DNA of 64,000 nucleotides, from positions 1 to 64,000 of the forward strand of contig NZ_VOHS01000026.1 in assembly GCF_007896845.1 (NCBI RefSeq), read 5' to 3'. Within the stretch, counting starts at the first letter, position 1. The number at the start of each line of letters is the position of its first letter. Under the pieces are notes generated by a model. That model ran no database searches and was not told the origin of the DNA. It saw only the letters and a list, made by a program, of their open reading frames with translations. Made by a program: the position numbers and the translations under genes. Of the stretch, positions 8,169 to 43,678 are shown in pieces. Source of the DNA: Chitinophaga pinensis. GTDB taxonomy: Bacteria > Bacteroidota > Bacteroidia > Chitinophagales > Chitinophagaceae.

Positions 8169-8345
8169 TGCATTTATAGGGGGGCAGGTGGAATCACGAA
8201 ATGACGTGAATTTCTGTGGATTGTCCATATATCGTGAGCTTTTCAGGATATGTCAGGTCTTAAGATATTGATGGACAATTGTTTAAGTGTTGGTATGGGA
8301 TTCGTTATCTCCATGTACACAGCGAACAAAAAAGGGATTTCCTCT

Positions 8346-10634
8346 ATGCGAAAGACACTGATGATCTTAATGTGCCTGCTGCTTTCTTATATGGTGCAGG
8401 CACAGGATGAATATACGAAGGCTATACCGCAACTTTTACAGCAACTGAAAAAAGCAAGGGCAGATACGGGCAGTGTAAGTCTGCTGTTGAAAATAGCGCA
8501 CTTTTATGTCTTTAAACCCGGCGAACAGGTAAAGGATCTGGACTCTGCTGTACTAATGGCCCGTCAGGCAGAAGCTTTAAGCGGGCGGCTGCATTATCCA
8601 AGAGGAACGGGACTGAGTTATCTTGTCATTTCACAGGCGTGGCGGGAGAAGGGAGATACGGCAAGGGGACGGCCTTTTGCTGATATGTCGATTGTAACAT
8701 TGAGTCGCTACGGTTCAAAACTGGAACAGGGAAATGCATGGAAAGAACGTTCTATGTACCCTGGCCATGTTGTTATTGACGAGCGTAGTCAGAAGATTTA
8801 TTATGAGGAAAAGGCCGTTCAGCTTTATAAAGAATCCGGAGATAGTCTGACGTATGCAAAAGAGCTGGTCTTTCTTTCAGAGATCACAGATAGTGGTGAG
8901 GACCTTGAGATGGCATTGGAGGCGCTGCGGATATTTAGAAATATCGGTTATAAAGATCTGCAGGGTGTACTTTATCTGATCGGTAGTCAGTATTCGGTCA
9001 GGAATAACCCGATCGAAGCGATCCGGTATTGTGAGATGGCTGTTGCTGTGGCAGAAGAAAGAGATAGTACGATGCAGTTATGTACTGTGTACAACAGGAT
9101 GGGGCTTGCTTATTATGAGATAGGGGAGCGGGAGAAGGCAAAGGAGTTTTTTCTTAAAGCGCTTGGTGTTGCGGAAAGGCACAGGGACATGGATGCGATA
9201 TGGACATTGGTGCCGAATGTAACTTCAGAGATTACTGACAAAAATGAGCGCGTACAATATCTGACGACTATGTTAAAGAAGTTTCCGTTGCCGGCGGATG
9301 ATTTCGAAACAAGAGTACGGATGAACAGTATATATGTCCATACTTACACAGAACTGGGGAGGACAACGCTGGCTAAATTTTATCTGAATGAATCGTTATC
9401 TATTATAGATAATCTAAGACTTACCTCATGGTATAGGATGCCTTTCTATCGTTCTGCTATTGTTTATTATATGCACATGCATGAGTATGATGCTGCTGCA
9501 AAATTGCTGAAGCTATATGAGGAGCAGGTATATCGGAGAGCCCGTACAGATCTGCTGGCGGAGAACCATCTGACATGGTCAGGAATAGATTCTGCGAGAG
9601 GGGATTTTGCAGCTGCGTTTGCGCATTACAAGGCCTACAAAACGTTGGAGGATTCTATTACGCTTGCCACGAAGACAAGAGAATTTGCGCGGGTGCAGGT
9701 GGAGTTTGAAACAATCAGAAAAGCAAAGGATCTGAAGTTGCGCGAACGTGATATTACGTTGTTACATCAGCAGGCGCAATTGCAGAAGGAGGAACTGAAA
9801 AGGGTGACGATTGTGCGTAATATGATCATTGTGGGAGCTGTTTTACTGCTTTTATTGTTGATATTGGGTTACAACAGGTATCGGCTGAAACAGCATACCA
9901 ACCGGGAGTTACAATCTAAGCAACATCAGATCAACCGGCAAAATATTTCTCTCAAAAAATTGATCCGGGAGAAGGACTGGCTGGTGAAGGAGATTCATCA
10001 CCGGGTAAAGAATAATTTGCAGATCGTTGTGAGTTTGCTGAATACGCAGGCAGCACATATGGAAGAAGGTTCGGCATTGGCGGCTATCCGCGACAGCCGT
10101 TTGCGCATGCAGGCGATTGCCTTATTGCACCAGAAGTTGTATCAGGTGGAGAATGCGGGTCTGATAGATGTGTCGTGTTATATTAATGAGTTGGTGGGCA
10201 ATCTTCGTCTGGGATGTGATTGTGTGGATGATATCCGTTTTCATGTGGAGATAGCGCCGGTATTACTGGATGTATCGCAGGCGACACCTGTGGGCCTGTT
10301 GCTGAATGAAGCCATTACAAATGCGATCAAGTATGCATTTCAGGGCAGGGGAAAGGGGAATATCAGTGTATTGTTTAAGCAGTTGCCTGAGAGGATGTAT
10401 CTGTTGAGCGTAGCAGATGACGGCGTTGGCTTACCCGCTGATTTCAAGACACAGCGTAAGCGGGGCACTTTTGGTATGAGTCTGATCGATACGCTGACAC
10501 AGCAGCTGGACGGTACACTGGAGCTGGTGAATAATGCCGGATTGACGTTAAATATCACATTCAGGGAGCAGTGGGAGGAACATTCTGTTTTGTATAATGA
10601 GGACGAAGATTTAGTGCCGGGTGAGTATGTTTAA
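8346..10634 (+). CDS. TPR-containing sensor histidine kinase, HisKA_2 type
   Basis: I place the start at 8346 because it gives a clear signal peptide (MRKTLMILMCLLLSYMVQAQ). The open frame continues upstream to 8250 without one. The periplasmic part, about residues 20-480, is a chain of helical TPR-like repeats (for example CTVYNRMGLAYYEIGEREKA). One membrane segment follows at about 492-514, then a short linker and the kinase core. The phosphorylated His lies in K-E-I-H-H-R-V-K-N-N-L-Q (His about 551), the HisKA_2 signature. The ATP-binding part has N-E-A-I-T-N-A-I-K-Y-A-F, D-D-G-V-G-L-P and a G-x-F-G-M-S-L motif. No receiver-domain gene lies next to it, so its partner is unknown. The signal sensed is also unknown. 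Confidence 0.9.
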   Translation: MRKTLMILMCLLLSYMVQAQDEYTKAIPQLLQQLKKARADTGSVSLLLKIAHFYVFKPGEQVKDLDSAVLMARQAEALSGRLHYPRGTGLSYLVISQAWREKGDTARGRPFADMSIVTLSRYGSKLEQGNAWKERSMYPGHVVIDERSQKIYYEEKAVQLYKESGDSLTYAKELVFLSEITDSGEDLEMALEALRIFRNIGYKDLQGVLYLIGSQYSVRNNPIEAIRYCEMAVAVAEERDSTMQLCTVYNRMGLAYYEIGEREKAKEFFLKALGVAERHRDMDAIWTLVPNVTSEITDKNERVQYLTTMLKKFPLPADDFETRVRMNSIYVHTYTELGRTTLAKFYLNESLSIIDNLRLTSWYRMPFYRSAIVYYMHMHEYDAAAKLLKLYEEQVYRRARTDLLAENHLTWSGIDSARGDFAAAFAHYKAYKTLEDSITLATKTREFARVQVEFETIRKAKDLKLRERDITLLHQQAQLQKEELKRVTIVRNMIIVGAVLLLLLLILGYNRYRLKQHTNRELQSKQHQINRQNISLKKLIREKDWLVKEIHHRVKNNLQIVVSLLNTQAAHMEEGSALAAIRDSRLRMQAIALLHQKLYQVENAGLIDVSCYINELVGNLRLGCDCVDDIRFHVEIAPVLLDVSQATPVGLLLNEAITNAIKYAFQGRGKGNISVLFKQLPERMYLLSVADDGVGLPADFKTQRKRGTFGMSLIDTLTQQLDGTLELVNNAGLTLNITFREQWEEHSVLYNEDEDLVPGEYV

Positions 10635-35523: not shown

Positions 35524-35586
35524 CGCCACAAACGCCGGATTAAGATCAATCTCCCGCCGTGGACTGTTAATAAAACCCTAAATTGA

Positions 35587-35955
35587 TCAGGCAGGACGAT
35601 CACCGGTTTCGGCCACTGTAACTCTGCCTTTATCATCTACCAGCACAACCGTTCCGGCATCGCCCGTAGGCAGGATAAATCTGACCTGAGATGCCGTTTT
35701 TAGCTCCCTGATTTTTTTTGTGGAAAATTCATATACCTGAGCACCAGAAGGTTCGGTTGCCATGACCAGCAGGGATTCTGACAACAGTAGCCACGGTAAT
35801 GTATTCGGCCCGGGATTAAAATGGTTTGTTATCTGGAATCCCTGACTGTCTTCTCTTACTAAAAAACAACCCTTTTTCGTCGATACCACGAGTGTCGTAC
35901 TAAGGGAATGCTGGAAAATGGTCATATTGTCGATATCGGTCTCCATTTTCAGCAC
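35587..35955 (-). CDS. fragment 4: C-terminal propeller-like piece of the split ternary-system protein
   Basis: This 122-residue frame is not an independent gene. Its first in-frame Met is internal: upstream, in the same frame, G-E-R-L-Y-R-I-E-S-L-G-S-T-A-V-L-K continues the previous fragment. It holds repeated short strands (T-L-V-V-S-T-K-K-G-C-F-L-V-R, L-L-V-M-A-T-E-P-S-G-A-Q-V-Y-E-F, G-T-V-V-L-V-D-D-K-G-R-V-T-V), the look of beta-propeller blades. Confidence 0.6.
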   Translation of the reverse strand: MLKMETDIDNMTIFQHSLSTTLVVSTKKGCFLVREDSQGFQITNHFNPGPNTLPWLLLSESLLVMATEPSGAQVYEFSTKKIRELKTASQVRFILPTGDAGTVVLVDDKGRVTVAETGDRPA

Positions 35956-35975
35956 AGCAGTACTGCCGAGGCTCT

Positions 35976-36752
35976 CTATTCTGTATAAACGTTCCCCTGA
36001 AAGAGGTAAAAAGGGTCATTACCATAGATCTGGTAAGGTGCTGATCCTCTCAGGAGTATGACGGGTTCGTTATTTGTTTCATTGAAGCATCTGGTGAGCA
36101 CTTTTTCGCCTTCCATATTATCATCCTGAAGATAGAGTTCCCCGGTGTTTTTATCAGCAATGAACAATACCGGTTGACTATCCAGATCGTTTGTTACGCC
36201 CAGCAGTTCTTGTCCGGCAGAAAAGTCAGTGGTATCCAGCTTTATATGGCTATGAAAAGGGCTGACATGTGGCAGGTCGGGGACACCGATATCAATAACC
36301 CCCCGGTTTGTTTTCAGGAACATCGTCAGCTTGCTGTGCCGCATATTTCCGCTGATGGGGAAGTAAGGCTGAAGGGTGACTTCTCTTTTACGTCTGACCT
36401 GTTCTGCCAGATGCCGGCTTTCCCACGAATAGTATTTCTGATGGCCTTGCAGGGTCATGCGTAGCACAAAGACACGGGCGGACAGTTTACCTACGAACAG
36501 AAGCTGCTGCATCGATGCCGTTGCGCCATACCATTCGATATCTTCCCTAAGCCGGAATCCCTGTGTTGTTTTAATATTTGCTTCCGGGTATTTCTGGCGG
36601 TCGTGATAGCGTTGAATATCGTGCTGAACCTGTTTATCTTCCGGCAGGATCCTTTTCAGGAGGTTCAGTTTGTTGGTGTCGCCCTGTTCTATCTGAGGAC
36701 TGATCACCTCATAAGTTATTTGTGTGGTGACATTGCCGGCTTGTTCGTCCAT
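35976..36752 (-). CDS. fragment 3: middle propeller-like piece of the split ternary-system protein
   Basis: The 258-residue frame begins inside a conserved stretch, since P-V-H-L-L-D-F-R-E-Q reads in frame just before its first Met. It ends in a shifted tail at Y-L-F-Q-G-N-V-Y-T-E. Strands such as L-L-F-V-G-K-L-S-A-R-V-F-V-L-R-M and P-V-L-F-I-A-D-K-N-T-G-E-L-Y-L suggest propeller blades. Confidence 0.6.
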   Translation of the reverse strand: MDEQAGNVTTQITYEVISPQIEQGDTNKLNLLKRILPEDKQVQHDIQRYHDRQKYPEANIKTTQGFRLREDIEWYGATASMQQLLFVGKLSARVFVLRMTLQGHQKYYSWESRHLAEQVRRKREVTLQPYFPISGNMRHSKLTMFLKTNRGVIDIGVPDLPHVSPFHSHIKLDTTDFSAGQELLGVTNDLDSQPVLFIADKNTGELYLQDDNMEGEKVLTRCFNETNNEPVILLRGSAPYQIYGNDPFYLFQGNVYTE

Positions 36753-37486
36753 TTGTTCACGGAAGTCGAGTAAATGGACAGGAACTGGTCATATCGCTCC
36801 TGCGGGGTCTTTTCGCTATATATGCTGCTGATCTTTGCTGCCAGTCCGGTTTTATCCTGCTGGTTATTGATCTCAAGATATCTGATCAGGCAATTTCTGC
36901 CATTATAGTCATTTTGCCAGCCATTTGCGAGTATATTGGTAGCGGCGGTTGTATCTGCTGTTTTTTCATGCAGGATACGCGCTGCCGCCAGATAGTCCCG
37001 TGTACCCAGATATTGTTCTACTGCCAGCTGATAGTATTCGAGTGCGCTTTCCCGTCGGGAAAGTTGCATCAGCAGATCCCCTGTTTTCTCAAATTTCTTT
37101 TGTTCTTTATAGATTTTGATGGCTTCCAGCAAGAGTCCGCCCTGTTCATAACACCTTGCTGCTTCCAAAGGCTGGTTGAGATGACTTTGGTAGAGGATGG
37201 CTGCTTCGTGATAGAACTTTCCCTTTTCCAATAGTCTTGCCGCCTGCCACAGATCACCCAGCAGGTGTGCATAGATATAGGCTGCCTGCCGGAAATCACC
37301 TTCTTCAATCGCTTTCCGTGCCTGTTCCTGATATTTTTGTCTCAGCCGTTCTCCCTGATTTTCACTGGCATGCCATCCGTCTACGCTGTGGGCGCTGAAC
37401 AGACCACTCAGGCTGAAGTTGGTGTTGCGTACACTCAGGCGGTCAGATGGCGGTGCTGTGCCTCTACCCGCTGCATTATCTGACAA
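36716..37486 (-). CDS. fragment 2: TPR-like solenoid piece of the split ternary-system protein
   Basis: This 256-residue frame has only a TTG to start from. Upstream in the same frame R-E-L-E-R-L-L-K-L-F-E-T-N-P-G-E-A-L-K-Y is clearly coding. Its helices repeat about every 20 residues with A-A-x-I-Y/L-Y patterns (A-A-Y-I-Y-A-H-L-L-G-D, A-A-I-L-Y-Q-S-H-L-N-Q-P-L-E-A-A-R-C-Y, A-I-K-I-Y-K-E-Q-K-K), as in TPR-like solenoids. It may be a protein-interaction arm. Confidence 0.65.
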   Translation of the reverse strand: MSDNAAGRGTAPPSDRLSVRNTNFSLSGLFSAHSVDGWHASENQGERLRQKYQEQARKAIEEGDFRQAAYIYAHLLGDLWQAARLLEKGKFYHEAAILYQSHLNQPLEAARCYEQGGLLLEAIKIYKEQKKFEKTGDLLMQLSRRESALEYYQLAVEQYLGTRDYLAAARILHEKTADTTAATNILANGWQNDYNGRNCLIRYLEINNQQDKTGLAAKISSIYSEKTPQERYDQFLSIYSTSVNKWTNKPAMSPHK

Positions 37487-37545
37487 GGGAATAGCGTATT
37501 TCAGTGCCTCTCCGGGGTTTGTTTCAAATAATTTAAGCAGGCGTT

Positions 37546-38382
37546 CTAATTCACGGTCTCTTTAGCCTGCAGGTCCTGCATCATTTTTTCAAGGCCACGT
37601 TGTACATATGAGCTACCAGATCCACCAGATCCGCCAGCACCTCCGCGAACGGATCTGCCACCACTTCTTTCTGATGATGCAGTACGGCCACCGAAAGAGA
37701 ATAATTTTAAAGCGGAAAGGAATTTACCAATTATACTTTCACGGAAAAATGATGCCTGCTGACCGGAAGTATCCGGGTTTTCGTCAGGTGGAAGACCAGA
37801 CAGGATAGTACCATCCTCCTGCGGTAAGTCATATAATGGTCTGGGGGCATCTCCGTTTCCCAGTAATTCACTGATATTGGCGGTTGTGGCAACCTGCGTA
37901 ATGCCGATATTGGTTAATCTGGCTATAGGCGGCATACCGGGATGCGCATGATCCCAGGAACGCGTTAGTTGTTTTCCGGCATTTACCAATACTGACAGGC
38001 TGATTTCATCCCGTATCTCGAAACCAACAAAACCTATTGCAGGATGTAATATCTGGCGGTGCCAGATCAGGAGGTCTTTCATTTCTGCCGGAGAGATGGC
38101 TGGTGTGATACGCGCATTGACAGGAATAAAGCAATTCCCGTTAATGACAGTATAGGGATGACGTATTTTTTCGGGTGATGGGAGCTGATTTTTGAAAACA
38201 ACCAGCAGACCACCCGCTTCTTCTGTGTTTTTGTGTTCCGGTAATAGAAAGCCGGAGAGCCCTGTCAGAGGGATCTGCCATTCATTCATTTCACGGAACC
38301 ATTCCTCCGGTGTATTGCCGCGGAGGAAAGCAGCGCCTGTGTTGTGCAGGATCTGTGCATCATATTGCAGCTGCAGTAACAT
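37546..38382 (-). CDS. fragment 1: N-terminal bpX-like domain of the split ternary-system protein
   Basis: The 278-residue frame has a genuine ATG at 38382, overlapping the end of the vWA gene by 23 bases. Residues 1-175 resemble a bpX domain of MoxR-vWA-propeller ternary systems (G-N-C-F-I-P-V-N-A-R-I-T-P-A, H-P-A-I-G-F-V-G-F-E). A linker at about 230-255 is mostly Gly, Ser and Arg. The last four residues, after Q-A-K, are probably a shifted tail. Confidence 0.7.
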   Translation of the reverse strand: MLLQLQYDAQILHNTGAAFLRGNTPEEWFREMNEWQIPLTGLSGFLLPEHKNTEEAGGLLVVFKNQLPSPEKIRHPYTVINGNCFIPVNARITPAISPAEMKDLLIWHRQILHPAIGFVGFEIRDEISLSVLVNAGKQLTRSWDHAHPGMPPIARLTNIGITQVATTANISELLGNGDAPRPLYDLPQEDGTILSGLPPDENPDTSGQQASFFRESIIGKFLSALKLFSFGGRTASSERSGGRSVRGGAGGSGGSGSSYVQRGLEKMMQDLQAKETVN

Positions 38383-40858
38383 ATTTCTGGATTATGTGTA
38401 TAAATGGACGAATATATTTCTGATGGAAGGCCATTATTTCTACCACTTTAGCGTCTTCCGGTCTTAAATATGGGTGTCCGCAGGTATCCCCATTGGAAGC
38501 CCAGCAGGAAATGCCGATGTTCACCATTACAGGGAGCGCTATTTCAGGTAATGCCTTATTAGAGCTACGGAGGTAGAGCATATGGCGTACTGCATCAAAC
38601 CATGCCTCACTACCATCCGGCCAGTGGTATCGCAATAATGGTTGTCGCAGGTCTTTTACTTTCAGCTTTTGCATCGTGCTGATGATGTTATGCTCCGGTG
38701 CAGGGCCGTTAACAGGAATGAATTCAACTTTATTCTGGCTGAAGATCAGTTCATGCCTGTTGACTTCAAAGTTTCCATTGTCATTGATGGCGATATGTTT
38801 GATCTTACTCACCATATCATATGCCGCTGAGCTGTTGCTGTAAACGTTGGTTGACATCAATGTCATTGAACGGATATTGTCGAGCTGTGTTCGCTGCAGG
38901 CCAGGAGGTGCAGCTGTCAGTTCTCTACTGTACACATTCAGTGAATAGATGCCGTTGGCCGTTTCAAAAAGGAATGACTTATCATTAATACTGAATTCAG
39001 TTCTGAATATTTTACCGATGCTTGTTTCCTGTATCAACTTAATCGTGACCGGATGGCTTGACAACTGTCGTGTCTTTTTATCCAGGTGGCAGATGATGAA
39101 GGCTTTGGTATGCCTGTCCCGGAACTGGATGAAGAAATTGTTTTCATCATGTCCGTAGTTATAGACTGACATATACGCTTCGGGGAACAGGGACATCATT
39201 TCCAGAGCTCCTTTATGTTGATTCTGCCAGTATACCAGTTGTCGCTGGTCTGTTATGCAGATACCACTATGGTCCTTTGAGGCAATACCGTTGTAGCCAT
39301 AATTGCGTCTTGCCGGTAATAACAAAGGAAAGGGCACGTGTTCGAGGAACAGGGGAATATCCAGCATTGTGGGAGTACCTCTGAAGCTATGTGTGAGCGG
39401 CTGTTTTTTAGCACGTGGAGGAGGCGGTTCCAGATTGATACGGGCAGTGCTGAGTAGCTTTCTGTGTCCGGAGAGATACCTGTACAAGTGAACTGTCGCA
39501 TCCCGTTCTATTGTTACCAGAAATCCATTGTGCGGACGCAAGGAGGCAAACGCATGTTGAAAGTCTGTTTCATGGAACAGCTCTTCGCTGGTGATCAGGA
39601 AAAATTCGTGGTCATTGCTGAGTGTATGCAATTCATTAAATGCCAATAAAGCATTGGCGCTGCGCAATGCCGGCGAAAGTACGTGCATGGACTTTACCAC
39701 ATCTTTTTTATTGGTAAGGTCAATGGTTTTGCATTGGTCTCCTGCGAGGGCATAGCTTGTGATAGTGGCCTGCTGTTTCTTATCCACGATGGAGGCCAGA
39801 GTAGTGGATACGGCCAGCATATGCGGCGTTCCCCACATTTTTATACTCTTGTCAATCAGTATAAAACGGTGTGTATGCAGTTTGTCGGGGATTTCTTCCC
39901 GGCGAAGGTATAAGGCTTCATTGTTGGCCAGTCTTGCCATCAGCACATCATCTTCATTGGCCAGTTCACTGAGCAGCAGTTTATCAATAGTGCCTTTATT
40001 GGTAATATCAGACACACCACCGATCGTTCTGTCTCCCGCCCGATTCGTATGCATGGGCAGATGAATGGCTGCCATCAGGCGTTGGGTCAGTAATGCAATA
40101 TATGCGGTGTTGTCATCTTCTGCCAGTTCTTCCAGCAGGTCTTTTTCTCCTGCCTGTGGCGGCAAGGGTAATGCTTCCGGCATCTCTACAGGTGCCAGTG
40201 GGGGAGGAGGTGTAGCTGGTGTTTTGATCCGTGTTTCCAGTTCCTGTTCCAGCACATCTGTATAAGGATATTTATGCAGGATACGGGACATGATACGGAG
40301 GTCCGTGTTTGCCTGTGTATTCGACCAGTTATTATCGTCTATTCGTGGTGCACAATAATCTTCGGCTGGCAGTTTTTGAAATATAGCGATCATTTCCTTT
40401 CCGGAACCATTCGCCAGTGCCAGTGGAATCTGTTCAAAAAGGCAGTTGAAGAGTATGGTACGTTTATCCTCGTGCCAGTATTGGCGGGACAGCGGATATA
40501 ACAGGTCAACAAATGAGCTTAACAGGTTGGAATCATCCGTCAGATCTTCAGGATTGGAGCGGTATAACCAGCTTTCGGGATTTATCATGGCACGCCATAA
40601 TTCCTGCTTTAATACGTCCGGGGTAATACCTTCCCGTGGCCGTTGTGTATCCACTTTACCGATCATTAAAATGATCAGCAAAACAGATAAGGGAGGTGTT
40701 GTCGCATATTCCTGCGACAGGAGACCGATCAATTCTTCTTTGAAACAGATTGTGTTTCCTTTGGCAAATTCTATGACAGTGCCGTCTTCTGTCCAGTGCC
40801 AGAAATAGTCTTTGGGTGCACTGAAATAAGCGATGGTTCTATCGTGCAGATTTTCCAT
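38360..40858 (-). CDS. vWA plus beta-propeller-like protein of the ternary system
   Basis: The 832-residue cytoplasmic protein has three parts. Residues 1-270 are a helical N-terminus of unknown type. Residues about 280-490 are a diverged von Willebrand A domain: G-G-V-S-D-I-T-N-K-G-T-I-D-K-L-L-L-S-E-L leads in, and the metal-site-like motif is D336-K-S338 in L-I-D-K-S-I-K-M-W-G-T-P. Residues 520-832 are propeller-like strands ending in W-P-D-G-S-E-A-W-F-D, L-Y-L-R-S-S-N and C-W-A-S-N-G-D-T-C-G-H-P-Y. This matches the vWA component of MoxR-vWA-beta-propeller systems, in which the vWA protein works with the MoxR ATPase. The gene begins directly (0 bases) after its upstream neighbour and overlaps the next gene, so the proteins are probably made in set ratios. 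Confidence 0.82.
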   Translation of the reverse strand: MENLHDRTIAYFSAPKDYFWHWTEDGTVIEFAKGNTICFKEELIGLLSQEYATTPPLSVLLIILMIGKVDTQRPREGITPDVLKQELWRAMINPESWLYRSNPEDLTDDSNLLSSFVDLLYPLSRQYWHEDKRTILFNCLFEQIPLALANGSGKEMIAIFQKLPAEDYCAPRIDDNNWSNTQANTDLRIMSRILHKYPYTDVLEQELETRIKTPATPPPPLAPVEMPEALPLPPQAGEKDLLEELAEDDNTAYIALLTQRLMAAIHLPMHTNRAGDRTIGGVSDITNKGTIDKLLLSELANEDDVLMARLANNEALYLRREEIPDKLHTHRFILIDKSIKMWGTPHMLAVSTTLASIVDKKQQATITSYALAGDQCKTIDLTNKKDVVKSMHVLSPALRSANALLAFNELHTLSNDHEFFLITSEELFHETDFQHAFASLRPHNGFLVTIERDATVHLYRYLSGHRKLLSTARINLEPPPPRAKKQPLTHSFRGTPTMLDIPLFLEHVPFPLLLPARRNYGYNGIASKDHSGICITDQRQLVYWQNQHKGALEMMSLFPEAYMSVYNYGHDENNFFIQFRDRHTKAFIICHLDKKTRQLSSHPVTIKLIQETSIGKIFRTEFSINDKSFLFETANGIYSLNVYSRELTAAPPGLQRTQLDNIRSMTLMSTNVYSNSSAAYDMVSKIKHIAINDNGNFEVNRHELIFSQNKVEFIPVNGPAPEHNIISTMQKLKVKDLRQPLLRYHWPDGSEAWFDAVRHMLYLRSSNKALPEIALPVMVNIGISCWASNGDTCGHPYLRPEDAKVVEIMAFHQKYIRPFIHIIQKYVTAAAI

Positions 40859-41563
40859 TTAAAGTACATTGGTGAGGCGGATGGCGCTTCTGGTTGCCAT
40901 TACAAAACAATTCATGGGAATACGTTCCCATTGTCCGTCCGGATGAAACAATATCATGGCGTCTTTATCTGCGGCAAACTGCTCTATGATAAATGCGCCA
41001 GCCATTGACGGATCGAAATCATAGCCGGCTGGCAACAGCAGATTGTTTCTGACCACATAAGCCTTTCCCGGCAGGGAGGGTACAGGAGCGCCGATTACCA
41101 ATACTTCTTCCGATTCGCATACTGCAAAACTGAGTTGCTGTAATCTGATCAAAGGGGCATTGTCAGCGTATGCTTTCCAGTGTGCCAGATTGGTGATAAC
41201 AGCTGCTGGTTCTGTAGTCTGTGGTGCAGGGGTGAGTTGTATCGTGAATGTCTGCCGGGTTTTTCCCGGTAAGGCAGAAACAGGCAATTCTACTGTAAGA
41301 AAAGACGTCAGGGCTTCCCATGTCATTCTTTTAAGTGTATCGTGCGGTGTTTGCCGGCCGGGCAGGAATAAGCGTCCTTCGAAATCCGCGAGGTAAGTAT
41401 GTTTTACAGGCAACTTACGCAGCCGTATATCTGTACTTTCCGCCGGGATGCCTCTTACCCAGATGTCATCTCCTGAGAGAGCTACCTGCAGATCCGGCCA
41501 GGTGCGTATGTTTCCCAGTGTTTCCAGTTGTGTCAGGGGAAGCACGATGATCATTTCTTTCAT
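40859..41563 (-). CDS. bpX-like accessory protein of the ternary system
   Basis: I place the start at 41563 (M-K-E-M-I-I-V-L-P-L-T), which overlaps the MoxR stop in an ATGA and so suggests coupled translation; the frame extends to 41641. The 234-residue protein has W-V-R-G-I-P near residue 40, L-R-K-L-P, G-R-L-F-L-P-G-R-Q-T-P and later V-L-V-I-G-A-P-V-P-S-L-P-G. These elements recur in the small bpX proteins of MoxR-vWA-propeller systems. The exact bpX class is not assigned. No catalytic motif is visible; it may recruit or recognise a target. Confidence 0.72.
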   Translation of the reverse strand: MKEMIIVLPLTQLETLGNIRTWPDLQVALSGDDIWVRGIPAESTDIRLRKLPVKHTYLADFEGRLFLPGRQTPHDTLKRMTWEALTSFLTVELPVSALPGKTRQTFTIQLTPAPQTTEPAAVITNLAHWKAYADNAPLIRLQQLSFAVCESEEVLVIGAPVPSLPGKAYVVRNNLLLPAGYDFDPSMAGAFIIEQFAADKDAMILFHPDGQWERIPMNCFVMATRSAIRLTNVL

Positions 41564-42711
41564 GCTGATTGCATTATCTTCTTCCAGAGTGCGTCGATAG
41601 GAGTCAGTACATAGCTGCGTTGTGTGTTGTTGCTGATCCACTCACAGCGGCTATTGATGCTGCGTAGTCTGTCTTTGATCTGTGCACGGGTGGCTGCAGG
41701 TGTATCCGGATTGTCCCATTGCTGCTGCAATTGTTCCACTTCCCGGTACAGGGCTTCGGCATCTGGTGTGCCGCTGTTGTTGGCGCGTGGGTGTTCCTGT
41801 GGATGCTGTTCACCTTTCGCAATTATGGCATTTACGATACCTGCGATGATCTCAATCTGTTCTTCCGTATCCCAGATATAGCGCAGTATCCACAGATCAG
41901 AGAGAATAGCTTTATCTCTTCTGCAAAGCAGGGCACTGGCGGCTATCAATCGTTGCAGTTTTACAGCGCGTCTGTCAGATATCTGTATACCTGCATTTCT
42001 GAGTTGCTGTATCAGGGAGATATATTCGGTCCTTATACTACTGAGATCTATGGTGGTATTCAGCTGCTGTAATGCACGAAGTTCTTCAGCGGCTATTCCT
42101 TCACGTTTATTATCTGTTTGCTGTTCCAGTCCCCATCCGGCCTGCAGTACACTATCCAGCATCACCGGATCAACGTTACTACAGCGTACTCTTATCAGGA
42201 ACCTGTCGAACAGTGCCTGCAGTGCCTCATCTTCCGGGAGGTGGTTGCTTGCACCGATGAAGGTCAGGGCAGGTAGCTGACGGGTTTCTTTTCCTCTACG
42301 GAATATTTTTTCATTCAACGCCATGAGCAGGCTGTTTAGAATGGCGCTGTTGGCATTTAGTAATTCATCCAGAAATACCAATGAAGCTTCCGGCAGCATA
42401 CCGTCTGTATTGGTGACAAGGTCGCCGTCACGCAATTTACGGATGTCGAATGGTCCGAATAGTTCATTGGGCTCGGTAAAGCGGGTCAGCAGGTATTCAA
42501 ATGTTTTCAGGTCCAGCTGGCGTGCGAGTTCGCGTACCAGAGCACTTTTGGCGGTACCCGGGGGACCGAACAGAAAAAGGTTTTCTCTTCCTGCCAGACA
42601 AATTCCCATCAGGTCAATAATGTCATCTTTTCCTACGAATGTGTCTTTCATGCGTTGAAGTACATCATTCAGCTTGTCTATCAGTGGTGATTCAACGGTT
42701 AATGGTTCCAT
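41560..42711 (-). CDS. MoxR-family AAA+ ATPase of the ternary system
   Basis: I take the start at 42711 (M-E-P-L-T-V), 7 bases after the stop of the preceding gene; the frame opens at 42738. The 383-residue protein has Walker A G-P-P-G-T-A-K-S at 49-56, a MoxR-type F-T-E-P-N-E-L-F-G-P block, Walker B L-V-F-L-D-E-L at 111-117, sensor 1 in F-I-G-A-S-N-H-L-P, and Arg residues in L-F-D-R-F-L-I-R. The C-terminal lid is followed by a predicted coiled coil. MoxR ATPases act as chaperones with vWA partners, here the protein at 38360-40858. The surrounding bpX genes place it in a conflict-type system rather than in the classical MoxR metabolic role. Confidence 0.92.
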   Translation of the reverse strand: MEPLTVESPLIDKLNDVLQRMKDTFVGKDDIIDLMGICLAGRENLFLFGPPGTAKSALVRELARQLDLKTFEYLLTRFTEPNELFGPFDIRKLRDGDLVTNTDGMLPEASLVFLDELLNANSAILNSLLMALNEKIFRRGKETRQLPALTFIGASNHLPEDEALQALFDRFLIRVRCSNVDPVMLDSVLQAGWGLEQQTDNKREGIAAEELRALQQLNTTIDLSSIRTEYISLIQQLRNAGIQISDRRAVKLQRLIAASALLCRRDKAILSDLWILRYIWDTEEQIEIIAGIVNAIIAKGEQHPQEHPRANNSGTPDAEALYREVEQLQQQWDNPDTPAATRAQIKDRLRSINSRCEWISNNTQRSYVLTPIDALWKKIMQSA

Positions 42712-42718
42712 ATTGTTG

Positions 42719-43522
42719 TTATGAAGCAGTAAGATCAATTTTAAATTGTGGCCAGAATTGTACGGCGTACATACCGAGGGCTTCTTCTACCATTGGGAGG
42801 CATGCCGGATGCCGGCATTTCTCATAGTCTTTTGCCAGGATGATCCGGTCGATGTAGGTGCGTTTCAGAGAGGGATGTTCCAATATGGGAGACAATCCTT
42901 CTGCCGGGACTTCCGGAATGGCGGCGGCCGATAAAGGCCATTGTGCGGCCAGTGCGGTAAGTGTTGTTACCAGAGGATCTTCCGGAGAAATACCTTTTGC
43001 CAGCAAGAATATGTCCGGGAGGTATCGCAGACAAAGATCTGCGGAATAGCTTGCCGCAGGAGTCTGTTGGTCATCGAAAGGGGGCAGGTAACGCGTTAAC
43101 GCTGTTGCTTCCAGATGTCGTAGCAGCAGGAACTGGATGGTCCGGTACAGATAAGCTGCCGCCCAGAGTGCTGCTTTTTCATCATATGGGGGCGCCTGTC
43201 CCGGCATTTCGTTGATATCGTCGGTATAGTATTGCTGCAGGTGTACCTTTGCCAGACGTATTTCTTCCTCGTCAAAATCCTGCAGTGCATGAGCAACCCT
43301 TACTTCTCCCTTATTAATCAGTGATGATATAAATTCACTTAGTGTCATGGTATTAATGTGTTGGCGCAGACGTACCCGCCATGGTGTTAGCCATTGCTGA
43401 AAACCGGTAATAGTCCTGGGATGATGTAAATGCGCAGGAGGCGGTCCTCCAGATGCCAACCTGTCCCCGGGGTGGTCAACAAGAACAATAATTCTCTCAC
43501 ATACGATTAACTGCAAGTCCAA
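42719..43522 (-). CDS. first protein of the ternary system, unknown family, uncertain start
   Basis: The frame gives 267 residues from a TTG at 43522. The first ATG, at 43348, gives 209 residues and begins M-T-L-S-E-F-I-S-S-L-I-N-K-G-E-V-R-V. It is an all-helical-looking soluble protein with L-Q-D-F-D-E-E-E-I-R-L-A and A-A-L-W-A-A-A-Y-L-Y-R-T-I-Q-F-L-L-L-R. I do not recognise the family. Its position as first gene, 7 bases before MoxR, matches the small helical bpX-type proteins that open many such operons. The 58 residues before Met59 have a plausible composition, and the proposed -7 element at 43548 fits the longer form, so the start is open. Confidence 0.65.
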   Translation of the reverse strand: MDLQLIVCERIIVLVDHPGDRLASGGPPPAHLHHPRTITGFQQWLTPWRVRLRQHINTMTLSEFISSLINKGEVRVAHALQDFDEEEIRLAKVHLQQYYTDDINEMPGQAPPYDEKAALWAAAYLYRTIQFLLLRHLEATALTRYLPPFDDQQTPAASYSADLCLRYLPDIFLLAKGISPEDPLVTTLTALAAQWPLSAAAIPEVPAEGLSPILEHPSLKRTYIDRIILAKDYEKCRHPACLPMVEEALGMYAVQFWPQFKIDLTAS

Positions 43523-43547
43523 GATACGACTTATAGAATTATATACA

Positions 43548-43555
43548 AATATATT
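43548..43555 (-). promoter_or_regulatory. -7 element of the ternary-system operon
   Basis: On the minus strand TATATTTG matches TAnnTTTG, 26 bases before the TTG at 43522. No good -33 TTTG is seen. No other promoter candidate was noticed between here and 35587, which fits a single transcript. Confidence 0.4.
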
Positions 43556-43678
43556 GATATATGGATGGTTTATAGTGAGGGGCCAACGACAATCTTCCTG
43601 AAAAAAGACTTAAAAATGATGACTGGATTGTTATTTGTGATATCTATTTTTAATTTAGGGAATTAAATTAAAGAGATC

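Follow-up and report, generated by a model that had tools for sequence, protein, structure and literature searches.

We describe here an operon on the minus strand of a 64,000-nucleotide stretch of Chitinophaga pinensis DNA (contig NZ_VOHS01000026.1, positions 1 to 64,000; hereafter the window) that extends over 35587-43348 and encodes bpX4, a MoxR ATPase, bpX2 and a vWA protein, followed by the remains of a bpX3-TPR-propeller gene. The locus is genuine and well delimited, and represents a damaged member of a known family: its sequence matches the beta-propeller MoxR-vWA ternary systems, and within these subsystem 4 as described by Kaur et al. 2020 (PMC7159879). We consider the chances about even that it is a recently damaged copy of such a system whose intact form operates by the mechanism proposed below. 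The nearest named relatives of the genome are Chitinophaga, and two close relatives, Chitinophaga sp. YR627 (locus L085) and genome G071, carry the fifth gene intact, with 932 and 928 amino acids, respectively. The genes and gene fragments are as follows, with E values from Pfam and with related loci being the best 80 of at least 528 confirmed.

42719-43348, minus strand: bpX4 gene, first of the operon (PF19920, E 9.4e-64; present at 77 of 80 related loci)
41560-42711, minus strand: MoxR AAA+ ATPase (bpMoxR), 383 amino acids (PF20030, E 1.1e-100)
40859-41563, minus strand: bpX2 gene (PF19918, E 1.2e-65; present at 80 of 80 related loci)
38360-40858, minus strand: vWA protein, 832 amino acids (PF19915 and PF19917; motif counts; predicted model with a local-confidence score, pLDDT, of 83.4)
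37546-38382, minus strand: third component, piece 1, bpX3 and Gly-rich linker, an open reading frame (ORF) of 278 amino acids (PF19919, E 3.2e-41; tblastn with intact relatives)
36716-37561, minus strand: third component, piece 2, TPR solenoid in a different frame (tblastn 37561-36773, 78% to L085; ORF list)
35976-36773, minus strand: third component, piece 3, end of the solenoid and first part of the propeller in the third frame (tblastn 36773-36003, 78% to L085)
35587-36015, minus strand: third component, piece 4, end of the propeller (tblastn 36015-35593, 66% to L085)

A preliminary description of this DNA had assigned the locus to the bpX class of ternary systems, and this assignment has held up, since bpX0, bpX1, bpX2, bpX3, bpX4 and bpMoxR all pass their Pfam cut-offs in the anatomy of subsystem 4. 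For bpX4, bpMoxR, bpX2 and bpX3 the cut-offs are far exceeded; bpX1 (E 1.8e-14, 54 bits versus a cut-off of 27) and bpX0 (E 3.2e-7, 31 bits versus 27) are also above theirs. The MoxR protein matches PF20030 and has a Walker B motif FLDE and a GXXXTAKS-style P-loop, GPPGTAKS, the latter present in 10 of 10 aligned MoxR proteins. In the vWA protein a helical N-terminus (bpX0) is followed by the vWA domain, a propeller and bpX1. The D-x-S motif reported earlier is indeed there: in an alignment of 70 proteins D336 is invariant and position 338 is S or T in 68; position 340, though, is K or R in 66 of the 70, so that the MIDAS (metal ion-dependent adhesion site) looks degenerate. The tight packing of the minus-strand genes over 35587-43348 is likewise confirmed, with gene coordinates giving the junctions originally claimed (a 4-base overlap of MoxR and bpX2, 0 bases between bpX2 and the vWA gene, and a 23-base overlap of the latter with the third-component gene), and the five genes occur in this single order at 74 of the 80 related loci. 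What had been called a helical protein is bpX4, and relatives point to a start at 43348 for this gene rather than at 43522 as first proposed. Promoter-like sites showed no excess over shuffled sequence and terminator-like sites were mildly above shuffles (17 versus 9.1, sd 3.5).

The locus resembles the published subsystem 4 (PMC7159879) in its components, in the GXXXTAKS P-loop, in the propeller that follows the vWA domain and in a third protein built from a globular N-terminus, a linker, TPR and a propeller. It differs in that five genes, rather than the three given there, recur in the 80 nearest loci (all five in 74), in that some lineages do without the C-terminal propeller of the third protein, and in that the third component is broken in this genome. 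Such systems are characterized by Kaur et al. as enigmatic and without conventional effector modules, their conflict role being inferred. Consistent with the preliminary description, which assigned no effector, a Pfam scan of 10 third-component proteins revealed no effector domain. A literature search limited to open-licence papers found no experiment on the beta-propeller class, and the diversity-generating retroelement paper PMC10907252 concerns the VMAP type. Among solved chains the MoxR core is nearest by sequence to RavA (E 7e-50), although the match spans only residues 32-297 of 383 and the partner proteins differ from those of the RavA-ViaA pair. NorQD (Kahle et al. 2026, PMC13036017) also combines a MoxR ATPase with a vWA partner; here, however, no nitric oxide reductase gene was noticed beside the operon, and the vWA protein ends in a propeller and bpX1 instead of the NorD tail. 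A search of solved structures with the vWA profile returned nothing useful (best E 0.34), and the fold-search lists were filled by the propeller and vWA parts, not by bpX3, bpX0 or bpX1. The TPR profile of the third component (window 36716-37561 and relatives) had WDR19 of IFT-A as its best solved match, a weak one (E 1e-4), and weak TPR Pfam matches under the cut-off include eukaryotic coat-like solenoids, which may reflect a shared repeat type only. Homology of bpX2, bpX3 and bpX4 to one another was also considered, and a profile comparison found none.

The system had been regarded as complete-looking, with a whole bpX-TPR-propeller protein, and neither statement survives comparison with intact relatives. 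When the intact proteins of L024 and L085 are used as tblastn queries the fifth gene resolves into four pieces over three frames, with breaks near 37561, near 36773 and at 35991-36015, and the longest ORF that remains is the bpX3 piece of 278 amino acids, versus 928 and 932 in the relatives. The bpX3, TPR and propeller sequences are thus all present at 35587-38382, beside the vWA gene, but only as pieces. We took a single-frame third component as a requirement for a working system, one that is no part of the published family definition, and on this basis the locus is classed as a damaged copy rather than as a complete system. The remaining four genes are intact and under purifying selection, with ratios of nonsynonymous to synonymous substitution rates (dN/dS) of 0.05-0.17 in pairs involving the window and 0.06-0.19 between the two relatives. 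For the broken pieces, compared with L085 and G071, dN/dS amounts to 0.11-0.24, and the same blocks give 0.10-0.17 between L085 and G071. Such low values imply either that the break is recent or that an error has struck one gene three times.

Assembly errors of this kind would leave an operon that is truly complete, and both the draft state of the genome (7.1 Mb in 96 contigs) and the closeness of the dN/dS values of the pieces to those of intact relatives would fit such an explanation. We nevertheless think it improbable. ORFs of at least 150 amino acids from 100 kb of G071 were mapped to the window, with at least 60% identity counted as a match, and of the 60 that matched out of 91 (from base 2391 on; some are antisense shadows and a few are partial through a differing start or the window end) 59 keep their frame, the single exception being the fifth gene with all three breaks; the four other operon genes, moreover, are whole. 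Still less probable, in our estimation, is that the fifth gene lives on as domains produced separately, with bpX3 split from TPR and the propeller no longer made. Propeller-free forms of the third protein are common among relatives, two-ORF forms divided between bpX3 and TPR are found at 6 of 25 loci in the clade that has no propeller, including all 3 from Chryseobacterium, and the first break in the window lies near the bpX3/TPR junction. However, two more breaks follow the first, the ORF list gives the TPR piece only an inner TTG start, so that a stretch conserved in relatives, up to about residue 294, would be lost, and one of the six two-ORF loci (L086) is a metagenome-assembled genome (MAG) with a gap between the ORFs and may itself be broken.

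A presence/absence unit is delimited by comparison with a genome that does not have the operon:

35585-43596, no strand assigned: presence/absence unit, absent at the same site in genome G072 (L113) and also in G075 (L114)

In G072 blastn homology to the window ends at 43597 and restarts at 35584. At both empty sites tblastn with every component, the third being represented by the whole proteins from L024 and L085, gives chance-level matches only, and the flanking genes stand side by side. A survey of 60 genomes of the genus yielded a strong bpMoxR (above 320 bits, the next score being 58) in 22, of which 14 have the operon flanked by DUF1080 and AarF-like genes and 8 have it elsewhere. Related species hold the operon intact, trimmed or cleanly missing at the same site. 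bpX3 is found in 12 of 36 genus genomes, this one included, and bpX4 exceeds its cut-off in 10 of 395 genomes of a phylum sample. A mobile-element origin was considered and rejected, as the two unit boundaries share no 10-mer within 400-450 surrounding bases and no tRNA is present in the window. One plasmid record, from Hymenobacter yonginensis (NZ_CP115397.1, 245 kb), has both a MoxR of the bpX class and bpX4, the relatives lying at 117336-119111, and is the only plasmid record matching bpX4.

Several related loci depart from the common layout. In Chryseobacterium (L093:14212-16907) the third component consists of two genes with a 4-base overlap, the first of which (560 amino acids) has several membrane-like segments after bpX3. 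The vWA proteins of C. oryziterrae and G035 (L036:11863-13668 and L018:10235-12028; 602 and 597 amino acids) are without the bpX0 N-terminus. A bpX system in which no bpX4 was found and whose bpX2 and vWA genes lie about 3.6 kb apart occurs in L057 (a Thermoanaerobaculia MAG, the contig being binned as Acidobacteriota), through either transfer or mis-binning.

Sequence identities at the Chitinophaga site were averaged over 14 other copies, the window itself being left out, and over 12 for the third protein, for which alone ZLX-1 and C. tropicalis were set aside; G080 was not used, because its genome is that of C. filiformis DSM 527. Each neighbouring gene averages 0.88 identity, against 0.79 for MoxR, 0.63 for bpX4, 0.60 for the vWA core with its preceding segment, 0.55 for each of bpX2, bpX3 and TPR, 0.50 for bpX1 and 0.40 for bpX0 (missing in two rows), falling to 0.33 for the third-protein propeller, 0.30 for the linker and 0.29 for the vWA propeller. 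Propellers and linker therefore diverge far faster than the neighbours and are the least conserved parts at this site, rather than bpX3 as in PMC7159879. The third-protein propeller has, in addition, been lost repeatedly among relatives, in a survey from which eight contig-cut or unclear rows were removed.

With general divergence removed, residual co-divergence over 43 loci is highest, among 45 pairs, for bpX2-bpX3 (0.55), bpX4-bpX2 (0.54) and bpX4-bpX3 (0.43), while the expected contact between MoxR and the vWA core gives 0.36. Simulations (150 per noise level, at two levels) never attained the first two values and attained the third 1 and 2 times. With Chitinophaga removed, which leaves 30 loci, the values shift to 0.37, 0.51 and 0.41, with 0.48 for MoxR-vWA core, so that the trio no longer heads the list as a block. 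Given this weakening, and a 95% bound of 0.53-0.57 for the largest of 45 simulated pairs, a bpX2-bpX3-bpX4 subcomplex is suggested but not established. A pairing of the vWA propeller with that of the third protein, proposed in PMC7159879, finds no clear support (0.19 over 43 loci, a value attained by 26 and 32 of 150 simulations, and -0.01 over the 30 loci from outside Chitinophaga); the uncorrected value of 0.64 was rejected because parts of similar rate correlate through saturation.

A further feature may explain how the ATPase engages its partner:

39872-40048, minus strand: candidate MoxR-docking finger, vWA residues 271-329 (conservation blocks, model pLDDT and alignment to NorD)

This segment holds the three most conserved 10-residue blocks of the vWA protein (block pLDDT 34-48), is unstructured in the model and, when the model is aligned to NorD, occupies the position of the NorD finger that enters the NorQ pore. 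By analogy with NorQD, residues 271-329 are therefore a candidate for a finger entering the MoxR pore, a role that is putative here. We infer for the intact system a remodelling machine that is linked to the membrane and whose recognition surfaces evolve fast. The MoxR hexamer would grip the vWA protein, in the NorQ-NorD fashion, through the conserved, finger-like stretch immediately preceding the vWA domain and would spend ATP on twisting or pulling that protein. This motion would be relayed by the vWA protein to a membrane-linked partner made up of bpX3, with bpX2 and bpX4, and the TPR solenoid; the two propellers would recognize a variable target, in all likelihood a foreign protein, with the remodelled bpX3-membrane portion serving as the output. 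As to a membrane-spanning segment, hydropathy of at least 1.6 after residue 150 of the third protein is seen at 38 of 77 loci, whereas piece 1 of the window peaks at 1.25, inside bpX3. As the output/recognition protein is broken here, the system is probably silent in this genome.

A defence role for the intact system is plausible, and we rate a conflict role at about one half. Counted in its favour are the patchy presence in the genus, the two clean empty sites, the very fast divergence of propellers and linker and a third protein that has repeatedly been damaged or trimmed. A number of results weigh on the other side. The operon lies between housekeeping-like genes at one site in most of the genus genomes that have it, a scan of viral contigs found no relative, and PADLOC returned weak AAA matches only for the window. 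Nor did the defence islands that the preliminary description had suggested looking for around homologues appear at 62 related loci: among the families listed (the 25 commonest in each sample), flanks (150 of 512 proteins, from many genera) are not clearly richer in defence genes than a control (150 of 212 proteins, from the genus of the window only). PADLOC matched 64 families in the flanks and 32 in the control, but this excess is exaggerated by two reverse transcriptases, which hit numerous models; the listed flank families are mostly models that these two proteins hit, with two SWIM_XIII and three DEDDh proteins and a PDC-S02/Mrr protein as first member, and those of the control include mad, DrmMII, ZorB and one SWIM_XIII. 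Separately, one bpX operon is followed, about 0.7 kb downstream, by a PDC-S02/Mrr-type nuclease (L082:16779-17846).

A rival reading is that of a vertically kept housekeeping chaperone of the RavA-ViaA or NorQD kind that matures a membrane or envelope complex and has no conflict role. The preferred site between the DUF1080 and AarF-like genes, the lack of a defence island in the flank sample, RavA as nearest solved MoxR and a MoxR tree that groups by genus in Hymenobacter (11 rows), Pedobacter (3) and Niastella (3) are all in keeping with this, with the exception in the tree of C. pinensis, which together with two Flavobacterium rows stands apart from its own genus. Such a chaperone is harder to reconcile with the absence of a strong bpMoxR from 38 of the 60 genus genomes, with the clean empty sites of G072 and G075, and with propellers that diverge so rapidly and are repeatedly lost; furthermore, no gene family stood out in the flanks, where the top 25 of 121 families account for at most 4 of 150 proteins each. 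We regard a purely housekeeping function as less likely than not.

Away from the operon, window positions 8250-10634 hold one ORF of 794 amino acids, which we take to be a TPR histidine kinase, where G071 has two ORFs.

Taken with caution, a more general picture may be offered, in which Bacteroidota beta-propeller systems would be five-subunit machines in which MoxR drives the vWA protein by way of a NorD-like pore finger, with a conserved membrane-side output subcomplex of bpX2, bpX3 and bpX4, drawn from three different proteins, and with the two propellers as fast-evolving recognition faces, one of them shed repeatedly at an exact domain boundary, and in which this genome would be a natural knock-out of the recognition/output protein. 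The value of the locus lies in comparative anatomy. For a family proposed from sequence the comparison provides elements that make the proposal testable, namely a specific candidate docking segment, a predicted subcomplex of three proteins and propellers that evolve fast, and natural variants are available for comparison, both intact and trimmed, along with genomes that have or do not have the operon at one site.
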